A stretch of DNA of 64,000 nucleotides from an uncultured archaeon. Lineage in GTDB: Archaea; Thermoproteota; EX4484-205; JAAOZP01. The position numbers and the translations under genes were made by a program. The DNA lies in NCBI GenBank assembly GCA_938045545.1, contig CALIBN010000008.1, forward strand, positions 1-64,000, written 5' to 3'. Every line of letters begins with the position of its first letter. Position 1 is the first letter of the stretch. Positions 60,497 through 64,000 of the stretch are shown one piece after another. The notes below the pieces were generated by a model. That model had not been told where the DNA came from. It did no database searches and saw only the letters and a program-made list of their open reading frames with translations.

Positions 60497-61084
60497 ACAT
60501 GACGCTTTAAAACTCTAAACCGGGGGGCCGGGTGCAGTTTATATCTTGCACAGGATTTTCTACTGCGATATGTTTATGGGTGAGGCGGCGCTTTGGGTCC
60601 CGAGGTTCTGAGAAAACTACTGGTTTTCTTATACTTCTTCAAATAGCGTTCGTGAAAAAGGGTGTTGCAGTCAGGATGCTTGAAACATTTGTCGTTAGGG
60701 ATGATGATGGAAACATCATTAGGGTTGAGCACGCGCTAGCATCCTGAGTATGGGTGCAGAAACTCATGCTTAACAGCACAGCCCCATTGGTTTACATGTC
60801 TGTGAACATTGATTCTTAGCATACACCGCCTTCGAAGGATTGAAAATATCTCCCTACCCGGGATCCTGGAGCGGCTTCAAGGCCTGAAGGGTCTTAGGAG
60901 TGACGTACGATATTTTCGTTAAACTTGTTTGAAAGGGTAAGAGGGTTTCGCTCAAAGTGAATGGTAAACATGTTCACAGCGACGTAGTTCCGCTTCCAAC
61001 CGAAGATGCGACGAGCATGGAAGTATGGGTCGCGCTCGAGGACAATAGTTCTGCTTACTCGGAGCCCAGTCTGTTCCAGCAAAG
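60497..61084. other. 590-bp gap with two possible remnants
   Basis: On the plus strand, VRMLETFVVRDDDGNIIRVE (about 60675-60745) ends a short frame. On the minus strand, 60894-61082 reads LEQTGLRVSRTIVLERDPYF, HARRIFGWKRNYVAVNMFTI, which resembles the tail of a class I SAM methyltransferase. Neither has a start or complete domain. I treat both as remnants of low certainty. Confidence 0.35.
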
Positions 61085-61121: not shown

Positions 61122-62210
61122 ATGAGGAGGTTTCTTAAACTCCCCACGGATCCGATTGACGTCAATCCGGATAAAAAGATTAGTCAGCTGACTGATGAAA
61201 TGCTGTTTACAGGTTTTCAGGGTAGGAAGGTTGCTGAGGTTGTTCAAGTATGGTCGAGAATGCTTAAGAAAAGGAATATCGTAATATGGTTCGGCTTGGC
61301 CGGCGCCATGGTTCCAGCCGGGATGAGGAGGCTAATCTCATACCTGATTGAAAGGAGAATGGTCGACGTGGTTGTCTCGACTGGCGCAAACCTTTACCAC
61401 GATCTTTTTGAAGCCCTAGGCGGGAAACATTATGTTGGAACCCACCTGGTAGATGATGTCAAGTTGAGGAGGGAGAGGGTTGACAGGATTTACGACGTTT
61501 TCGCAGACGAGAACAAGTTCTACGAGACTGATCTCTGGATAGAAAAGGTTTTCGCTAGGACGCTTAGGGACGATTACCCATATTCCTCCCGTGAATTACT
61601 CTATCTTCTCGGGAAGCTTTTAAGCAAGAATGCTAAGGATAAAGACTCCATTCTTGTAAGCGCCTACAGAAGCGGCGTCCCGATATTTTGCCCCGCGTTC
61701 GGAGACAGCTCCCTGGGTTTCTCAATAATGTTCTCTAACAGGAGGGAGAGGGTTACAAGCGTCAATGGGAAGAAGGTTGTCCTTAAGAAGAAGAGGATAA
61801 TCGTCGACTACCTAAAGGATGTCGACGAGAGCTCTAGAATAACTGAGAAAGCGAAGCAGACCGGGGTGATATACATAGGTGGAGGCGTGCCCAAGAATTT
61901 TATTCAACAAACTGCCGTGATAGCGAGCTACCAGACTAGGCACGACAGAAGCCATGGTTTTGCGATACAGATCTCCACGGACGTGCCGCAGTGGGGGGGC
62001 TTATCGGGATGCACGTTCGAGGAGGGTCAAAGCTGGGGGAAAATCGGGTTCCGAGCACAGAGGGTGCAGTGCTACGCTGACGCCACCATAGTGCTTCCTC
62101 TCGTAGTTCATTCTTTAAGCGAAAAGTTCAAGAGGCTTAGAAGAGACATCCCGATTTTCGAATGGAAGGGTAGTGATTTGAAGATAACTTATGAGAGGAT
62201 GAGGCTTTGA
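61122..62210 (+). CDS. dys: Deoxyhypusine synthase
   Basis: 362 aa. NAD-binding VIWFGLAGAMVPAGMRRLIS, VSTGANLYHDLFEALG, GVIYIGGGVPKNF, and the catalytic-lysine region GGLSGCTFEEGQSWGKIG with Lys 307. Transfers the aminobutyl group of spermidine to a lysine of aIF5A. The family's usual GGLSGATPEEAVSWGK is altered at several places (CTF, GQS) but the lysine is present, so activity is likely. It may belong to the broader group with homospermidine-synthase-like members. Convergent with the PLP-PadR gene, 2 bp apart. Confidence 0.9.
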   Translation: MRRFLKLPTDPIDVNPDKKISQLTDEMLFTGFQGRKVAEVVQVWSRMLKKRNIVIWFGLAGAMVPAGMRRLISYLIERRMVDVVVSTGANLYHDLFEALGGKHYVGTHLVDDVKLRRERVDRIYDVFADENKFYETDLWIEKVFARTLRDDYPYSSRELLYLLGKLLSKNAKDKDSILVSAYRSGVPIFCPAFGDSSLGFSIMFSNRRERVTSVNGKKVVLKKKRIIVDYLKDVDESSRITEKAKQTGVIYIGGGVPKNFIQQTAVIASYQTRHDRSHGFAIQISTDVPQWGGLSGCTFEEGQSWGKIGFRAQRVQCYADATIVLPLVVHSLSEKFKRLRRDIPIFEWKGSDLKITYERMRL

Positions 62211-62212
62211 CA

Positions 62213-63613
62213 TTAGACGATAGCTTCCCCCCTTTCGGTTAGGGAATAATACTCTCTCTTCCTACCCATGATCCTCTTGGCCTCCACTCTTTTAACATAC
62301 CCTTTTTCAACGAGATCGGAAAGATGCTGGTAAACCGTTGGAATCCTCACGTTCATGCCGTATTTCTCCCTCAACCCTCTCCAAACTTCGTAGCCGTACA
62401 TGTTTTTTTCAGACAGCAGCCTCAGGATGGCTGTCTTAGTAGAACCAAGTCTAACACCTCCGCTCAACTCCTCTATCAACACGCCTAGGCTAGACTTACT
62501 GTAGGCTATTTCCTTCATAACCCTAGGATCCTTGAGGCCGCTTCCAGTTACGACGCAAACCACTTTGGCGTCTCTCCTCACCTCTCCGCTTTCAACCAGC
62601 TTCATCAAGCCTGCTAGAGGAAGGCTTCCAGCCGGTTCTGCAAGTATCCCTTCTTTCTCAGCCAGTAGGCTCAGGGCTTCAAATATCTCTTTTTCGCTGA
62701 CGGATACTGCTAGCCCATCCGTCTGTCTTATTGCTCTGAGGGCAGCGTTTCCGAACCTGGGATTGGCCACGTTCAGGTCGAATATTCTGCTTCTCGGCTC
62801 GGCTTCAGCCTCGACAGCATCGAAGCCTTTTTCAAAAGCCCTCACTATAGGCTTACAGTCCTCCGTCTGGACTCCGACTATTCCTACGCTGCCCCCAGCG
62901 ACGCCAAGCTCCCTCAGCTCTCTCATCATTTTATAGGTTGCGTAGACGAGGCCTCCCTCCCCCATTGGGAGGACCACGTAGTCAAGTGGGCTCCCACTGA
63001 GCTGCAGGAGTATTTCAAGCATGATTGTTTTCTTAGCCTCGTTTATCAACGGGTCGTGCTCCGCCGCGACGATAGTTCCCCTTGAGGCGCGTTTCCCGAA
63101 GGAGTTGACTACGCTAACCTCCGCACCATATATTATCATCTGGTAAAGTTTCCCAACGTCTATCGTGGGCTTAACCTGAACATGCGTCTTTAAACCGGCT
63201 TTAGAGGAGTATGCTGCCAGCGATGCGCCAAGGTTCCCGGTTGAATAGGTGGAGATCCTTCCGTAACCTAGACTTAGGGCAACCGACACGAATAAGGCTG
63301 AGCTCCTGTCCAAGTATGAGCCCGTTGGTTCAACGGTCTCATCCTTAATCCATAGCTCTTCAACACCTATGCTTCTCCCGATTCTTAAGCCGTGTTGGAG
63401 CATTGTGTATCCCTCTCCTAAGGAGACTCTGAACTTTTTCTCAACAGCCGGAAGTATTCCGCTGTGCCTCCAGATTCCGTGCTCTCCCGGCTCCTCTAAA
63501 AAGGATGGTTTCATCTCCAGCGTTAATCCCTGTCCACACTTTTCACACAGCTTTCTTTCAACGCTGAAACTGTAGGCTGCCCCGCAGCTCGTGCATCTGA
63601 GAGCATGATTCAA
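62213..63613 (-). CDS. Threonine-synthase-like protein without the PLP lysine, fused to a PadR-type HTH
   Basis: 466 aa from TTG 63613. A zinc ribbon (Cys 7, 10, 23, 26) and a fold-type II threonine-synthase body follow: IKDETVEPTGSYLDRSS, STGNLGASLAAYSSKAG, LPMGEGGLVYATYKM and VVTGSGLKDP. In this family the PLP-binding lysine lies in a GSFKDR motif; here it is Tyr-Leu-Asp-Arg, with Leu 101 (codon TTG) replacing lysine. Residues about 389-466 are a PadR-like winged helix: GSTKTAILRLLSEKNMYGYE, VRIPTVYQHLSDLVEKGYVK, RKREYYSLTERGEAI. I infer a transcription regulator whose dead enzyme fold senses PLP, an amino acid or a phospho-amino acid. A perfect palindrome lies over its own predicted transcript start. 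Confidence 0.85.
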   Translation of the reverse strand: MNHALRCTSCGAAYSFSVERKLCEKCGQGLTLEMKPSFLEEPGEHGIWRHSGILPAVEKKFRVSLGEGYTMLQHGLRIGRSIGVEELWIKDETVEPTGSYLDRSSALFVSVALSLGYGRISTYSTGNLGASLAAYSSKAGLKTHVQVKPTIDVGKLYQMIIYGAEVSVVNSFGKRASRGTIVAAEHDPLINEAKKTIMLEILLQLSGSPLDYVVLPMGEGGLVYATYKMMRELRELGVAGGSVGIVGVQTEDCKPIVRAFEKGFDAVEAEAEPRSRIFDLNVANPRFGNAALRAIRQTDGLAVSVSEKEIFEALSLLAEKEGILAEPAGSLPLAGLMKLVESGEVRRDAKVVCVVTGSGLKDPRVMKEIAYSKSSLGVLIEELSGGVRLGSTKTAILRLLSEKNMYGYEVWRGLREKYGMNVRIPTVYQHLSDLVEKGYVKRVEAKRIMGRKREYYSLTERGEAIV

Positions 63614-63624
63614 GCTATGTTCAA

Positions 63625-63638
63625 CCCTATATATAGGG
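63625..63638. promoter_or_regulatory. Perfect 14-bp palindrome, candidate operator
   Basis: CCCTATATATAGGG is its own reverse complement. It lies 12 bp before the TTG start at 63613. A separate TATA-like run (about 63644-63655) would start transcription near 63623, inside or beside the palindrome. A bound dimer would therefore block the promoter. The fused PadR domain is the obvious candidate for autoregulation. Confidence 0.55.
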
Positions 63639-63809
63639 GGGTACTTATATATATTTCTCCGCGCTTTTAAGATGGTCGGTTTCCCGCAGAGGCCGCTGCA
63701 CTTGATTCTTGAGTAACCAAGGTATTGAACGCTTCCAAAAATCCCTTTTCAAGGCTGATCACAGTATCATAGTAATGTTTTATAGATAGTTCGGGAAAGA
63801 TGCCTAGGA

Positions 63810-64000
63810 ATGGCCAAGCTGGATTTAAGGATTCTCCTCCTGCTAGCAATACTTATTACAACGGTTTCCTGCATAAGCCTGCTTATGATGCAGCAGCCTG
63901 GGAGAAGGGTGTTGCAGGGAAACTCAAGCAGTATCGAAGAGTATTTCAAAACAGTTCCCCTGGAGAGATTGGAGGTTAAGTTCTTCGGGTGGGTTACGCC
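63810..64000 (+). CDS. Partial exported protein (N-terminus only)
   Basis: Runs off the right edge. The first 63 residues hold a signal-anchor-like helix (LRILLLLAILITTVSCISLL) and then SIEEYFKTVPLERLEVKFFG, a soluble outer segment. A TATA-like GTTTTATAG (about 63777-63785) lies about 28 bp before the ATG. Family cannot be told from this piece. Confidence 0.6.
   Translation, partial: MAKLDLRILLLLAILITTVSCISLLMMQQPGRRVLQGNSSSIEEYFKTVPLERLEVKFFGWVT

Follow-up and report, generated by a model that had tools for sequence, protein, structure and literature searches.

A lysine-less threonine-synthase fold fused to a PadR winged helix as a candidate vitamin B6 regulator of Thermoproteota

In a 64,000-nucleotide stretch from an uncultured archaeon of the phylum Thermoproteota (contig CALIBN010000008.1, positions 1 to 64,000; hereafter the window), we characterized a gene whose protein joins a threonine-synthase fold, devoid of its catalytic lysine, to a PadR-type DNA-binding domain. 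The protein is probably a one-component vitamin B6 regulator descended from threonine synthase, which would sense a phosphorylated B6 vitamer and repress genes for B6 uptake and synthesis. With somewhat less assurance, we favor the broader reading that it represents a new family of archaeal transcription factors, present in at least 35 Thermoproteota families. Its members would sense pyridoxal 5′-phosphate (PLP), pyridoxamine 5′-phosphate (PMP) or a PLP-amino-acid adduct non-covalently through a lysine-less fold-type II pocket and would control B6 supply, having arisen independently of, and in parallel with, bacterial PdxR. The gene and its encoded domains are as follows.

62213..63613, minus strand: regulator gene, 466 amino acids, TTG start; Zn-ribbon, lysine-less threonine-synthase fold and PadR winged helix (intact open reading frame, Pfam)
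63524..63604, minus strand: N-terminal Cys4 Zn-ribbon (CTSC...CEKC), residues about 4-30, retained in enzymes and most fused proteins
62543..63427, minus strand: PALP domain (fold-type II PLP enzyme), residues 63-357 (Pfam E 8e-56)
63311..63313, minus strand: codon 101, TTG, encoding Leu where enzymes have the PLP Schiff-base lysine
62222..62428, minus strand: PadR winged-helix DNA-binding domain, residues 396-464 (Pfam E 1.7e-13)

The original prediction, made from this DNA alone, had placed a leucine at the PLP-lysine position (residue 101) and a PadR-type domain at the C-terminus, and both assignments held. The lysine motif, PTGSFKDRG in enzymes, reads PTGSYLDRS in the window protein, and the C-terminal domain scores 50.8 bits against PF03551 (gathering score 27), with PadR structures also matching this winged helix. 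PADLOC matches were limited to Csa3/CARF proteins and reached only their winged helix. The AlphaFold2 model is confident (mean predicted local distance difference test score 87.6), and its best matches among solved structures are the threonine synthases 6nmx, 6cgq and 2zsj (Foldseek); together with a significant PALP/ThrC profile match, this establishes homology to the threonine-synthase fold. A sequencing error or pseudogene decay as the source of Leu101 was ruled out by the presence of leucine in all congeneric orthologues spanning the position and by purifying selection between congeneric copies (ratio of nonsynonymous to synonymous substitution rates 0.05-0.16), from which it also follows that the gene is maintained.

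To place this loss within the wider family, we aligned 81 proteins with the PadR fusion and 48 paralogues without it, drawn from ~400 genomes of Thermoproteota, a single GTDB phylum. Lysine is absent at the Schiff-base position in 79 of the 81 fused proteins (arginine 40, leucine 25, isoleucine 4, methionine 4, threonine 4, valine 1, alanine 1), as the alignment check proposed with the original prediction had anticipated, whereas it occupies this position in 48/48 unfused paralogues. Retention of lysine by fused homologues, which had been named, together with enzyme activity, as an outcome that would speak against a sensor, is confined to the remaining two members (L133 and L138). In a tree of fused and unfused proteins built with the lysine column removed, a single branch (Shimodaira–Hasegawa-like approximate likelihood ratio test 90) separates all fused proteins from the unfused ones. 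The fused proteins divide into two clades, an arginine and a hydrophobic one, named after the residues that prevail at the lysine position.

These data bear on whether the protein might still be an active enzyme, a threonine synthase or a catalyst of some reaction without an internal aldimine, that also binds DNA. Such an enzyme would suit the intact fold, the lysine of the two exceptional members and the NCBIfam equivalog PRK05638 (NF004170), which is named "threonine synthase", belongs to the fused family and matches the window protein over nearly its full length. The match scores 251.7 bits, below the curated cut-off of 421, which only a few fused members pass; those PRK05638 members that do so and were inspected all carry arginine at the lysine position. 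The known chemistry of fold-type II PLP enzymes requires the Schiff-base lysine, the window's own genome has, apart from the regulator, an unfused threonine synthase whose motif reads TGSFKDRG (L002), and substrate residues have been lost, all of which makes an active enzyme highly improbable.

The pattern of retained and lost residues points to a pocket with a changed purpose. Both fused clades retain forty positions that are conserved in at least 90% of unfused enzymes; among them are N127, K155, T356, G357 and K361 (window numbering), of which we take N127 and T356 to be PLP-ring contacts from general knowledge of the fold. Lost in the fused proteins are K101, N184, T125, R190 and T128/S129, with R190, N184 and T128/S129 presumably contacting the substrate phosphate; R190, present in 41/48 enzymes, is replaced mostly by V, F, S, L or I. 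The phosphate loop is altered to M-G-x-G-[GS], with G220 invariant. One feature previously listed as kept from the enzymes did not survive comparison: the GNLGAS loop corresponds to GNTSAS or similar in most enzymes, so that the Asn is retained and the T-S pair lost. With both the Schiff-base lysine and the substrate-phosphate residues absent, the window protein does not qualify as a functional threonine synthase, and the fused-protein pocket looks like a cofactor site without a catalyst and without a substrate site. These residues support the earlier suggestion of a sensor rather than an enzyme and, because the PLP pocket is kept while lysine and substrate-phosphate residues are lost, lead us to predict non-catalytic PLP binding. 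Pocket residues could in principle persist for structural reasons, with the synthase domain a mere dimerization scaffold and the winged helix binding DNA constitutively without any sensed ligand; the conservation of PLP contacts in both clades alongside the loss of substrate contacts, as well as the B6-related gene context described below, leaves little room for such a scaffold.

Gene neighborhoods, annotated by profile matches, connect the regulator to B6 uptake. A PF07155 S-component of an energy-coupling factor (ECF) transporter lies beside the regulator in 48/80 loci from 19 families, in either a same-strand downstream or a divergent position and separated from it by no more than one gene; because PF07155 genes number few per genome in this set, this adjacency is far above chance. 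PF07155 is the family that contains the known B6 transporters PdxU and PdxU2 (PMC9997740). The closest solved relative of these S-components is 4hzu_S, HmpT/PdxU2, for which pyridoxamine has been reported as substrate (PMC4860826). HmpT ligand residues recur in the neighboring S-components (Y120 in 48/48, Q143 in 47/48, N140 in 42/48 and E41 in 35/48, with Asp in 12 more), and six other PF07155 proteins from the same genomes have none of the four. By this similarity, S-components of the PdxU/HmpT type would transport B6. Many of them also have a nearby gene for an AIR-synthase-related (AIRS) protein that matches HypE, ThiL or SelD models below cut-off (L230:4908-5924, L231:340-1377, L234:5086-6105, L239:5152-6201); that it might be a B6-salvage kinase is a guess.

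A second connection is to PLP synthesis. In two genomes of the window's genus (G007 and G001) and in G159, pdxS is divergent from the regulator; pdxT comes after it in two of them, G007 and G159, with the G001 stretch covered in part. Across 398 genomes, 11 encode both regulator and pdxS, 85 the regulator only, 175 pdxS only and 127 neither, an anticorrelation (odds ratio 0.09, p 1e-16) whose calculation ignores kinship and the incompleteness of metagenome-assembled genomes; contrasts between the two genes are also found within families f12 and f8. The window itself has a different gene at this spot, which was considered as a B6 transporter and rejected as such.

63810-64000, continuing past the window: GH18-family protein, divergent neighbor of the regulator, at the position held by pdxS in two congeneric genomes

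A further link between the regulator and its predicted target genes is a candidate operator. The palindrome that the original prediction had named for a test of DNA binding is real, 14 bp long when one flanking base per side is counted, and is positioned as follows.

63626..63637, no strand assigned: predicted operator CCTATATATAGG, within the 14-bp palindrome, with the start codon 12 bp downstream
63644..63654, minus strand: TATA-box-like element ATATATATAAG, followed after 6 nt by the operator, an arrangement that recurs in other families

Among regulators of the hydrophobic clade, CCTAYATATAGG occurs exactly at 15/38 promoters and with at most one mismatch at 19/38, compared to means of 0.0 exact and 0.05 within one mismatch in 200 shuffles, and the spacing from TATA box to operator is nearly constant. 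Exact operators also lie between regulator and pdxS in G007 and G001 and, in trans, upstream of S-component genes that do not adjoin a regulator (L213, L221 and L222, in genomes G011, G066 and G010), and in G008 pdxST and the S-component gene each have a two-mismatch variant, CCTATGTATAGA, upstream. A genome-wide scan allowing one mismatch returned 12 sites versus 10 in the control, which is chance level, and therefore only exact or positioned sites were used. Operator and context at pdxS and S-component promoters in these relatives would fit regulation of the MocR/PdxR kind and, among the ligands left open earlier (PLP, homoserine phosphate or threonine), point to vitamin B6.

Several observations weigh against a B6 regulator. 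Lysine loss is not absolute; L133 and L138, however, are sisters nested inside the arginine clade, so that their lysine is probably secondary. (Both genes have no S-component neighbor, and a reversion or a return to enzyme function is possible.) Within the S-components, H84 is mostly Lys and S136 mostly Glu, and the B6 substrate is deduced from likeness to HmpT. In the window and in its whole genome, CCTATATATAGG has a single exact copy, at the regulator itself, and the promoter of the genome's S-component has only a variant palindrome, which is shared with three relatives, has the counterpart CCTTCATATAAGG in a fourth, and is possibly a diverged operator.

G000:C2:104954-104966 (L243): CCTTAATATAAGG, upstream of the PdxU-like S-component of the window's genome, only copy in that genome

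The 43 loci of the arginine clade have neither CCTAYATATAGG nor any shared palindrome above shuffles, pdxS was not found in the window's genome or its closest relatives, where the GH18 gene takes its place, and the anticorrelation with pdxS may carry a bias from the kinship and genome incompleteness noted above. To these are added two features that might each favor another ligand. The ThiL/HypE-like AIRS protein found by many S-components could hint at another vitamin, and HmpT was first named for hydroxymethylpyrimidine (PMC4860826), so that the regulator might govern uptake of, for example, this thiamin precursor, with a ThiL-like kinase in the cluster. We regard this as very unlikely, given that pdxS is divergent from the regulator in three genomes, that a fourth has an operator-like site at pdxST, that regulator and pdxS anticorrelate, and that a PLP-enzyme fold suits a sensor of B6 more than one of thiamin. 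In family f14 (L066, L095, L107, L108, L111, L114, L115 and L117), the fused gene lies near, and divergent from, a canonical lysine-containing threonine synthase. Like the ancestry of the fold, this would suit a dead enzyme that acts on amino-acid genes in response to O-phosphohomoserine, threonine or a PLP-amino-acid aldimine. Loss of R190, N184 and T128/S129 with retention of the PLP contacts argues otherwise, an S-component is also found downstream at most f14 loci, and the S-component and pdxS neighborhoods, with operators at S-component and pdxST promoters, favor B6; an amino-acid regulator is accordingly an unlikely alternative.

Returning to a B6 regulator, we infer binding of DNA at the palindrome, a B6-vitamer ligand and repression rather than activation from the architecture, lysine loss, pocket residues, neighborhoods and operator conservation read in the sequences. 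The ligand of the lysine-less pocket would be PLP, a different phosphorylated B6 vitamer or an adduct of PLP with an amino acid, bound without catalysis, and the PadR winged helix, probably as a dimer, would occupy CCTAYATATAGG just downstream of the TATA box, where the ligand-bound regulator may block transcription initiation. When B6 is sufficient, the regulator is thus predicted to repress its own gene, the S-component for B6 uptake and, where present, pdxST.

This proposed scheme resembles that of the bacterial MocR/GabR regulators, in particular the PdxR subgroup, in fusing a winged helix to a PLP-enzyme fold and in its context of pdxST and a PdxU-type transporter; bacterial PdxR regulons contain pdxST, pdxK and pdxU, and a common intergenic region serves pdxR and pdxST (PMC5320631). 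The parts differ, with MocR/PdxR proteins having a GntR-type N-terminal helix-turn-helix and a fold-type I aminotransferase, whereas the archaeal family has a C-terminal PadR helix-turn-helix and a fold-type II threonine synthase that has lost its lysine. The window protein is not itself a MocR/GabR member, as Pfam matched only PALP and C-terminal PadR and neither an aminotransferase nor a GntR domain. Since the fusion forms a single family and Archaea lack MocR regulators according to a comparative study (PMC5320631), independent invention from a different PLP fold, as the original prediction had proposed, is the best reading.

Compared to ThrC, the fused family shares the fold, the Zn-ribbon of archaeal ThrC and PLP-contact residues but has neither the Schiff-base Lys nor the substrate-phosphate Arg/Asn, and gains the PadR domain. 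It has the same architecture as PRK05638/NF004170 (442 aa, with a C-terminal helix-turn-helix region), although that model names an enzyme and its inspected members above cut-off carry Arg at the lysine position. Its winged helix matches PF03551 as in PadR regulators, which usually sense through helices adjoining the winged helix, whereas here a separate, enzyme-derived domain precedes it. In the CymR-CysK system of Bacillus, a fold-type II PLP enzyme also takes part in transcription control, as an active and separate partner; in the family described here it is fused and has lost its lysine. No description of a fused threonine synthase-PadR protein or of a lysine-less threonine synthase regulator was found in the open-access literature searched.

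Two further features of the locus were observed. A gene for deoxyhypusine synthase (61122-62210) converges on the regulator with 2 bp between the two, a pairing kept in the genus. At 60631-61037, two fragments match residues 44-76 and 883-954 of a 957-amino-acid protein that is intact in close relatives (L228 6467-9340; L078 3422-6295), and most of this gene has therefore been deleted in the window's genome.

If this reading is correct, control of B6 by a regulator derived from a PLP enzyme evolved on two separate occasions, each from its own, unrelated PLP fold and each with its own type of DNA-binding domain, and Archaea, where MocR is absent, would have a candidate B6 regulator. The same reading would also point to likely B6 transporters in many archaea, where PMC9997740 had noted a gap, would suggest which of them are without B6 synthesis, and would flag a systematic misannotation of proteins labeled threonine synthase that are probably not enzymes. 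The natural series of residues at one position (K, R, L, I, M, T, V and A) offers a handle on how loss of a lysine makes an enzyme a sensor.
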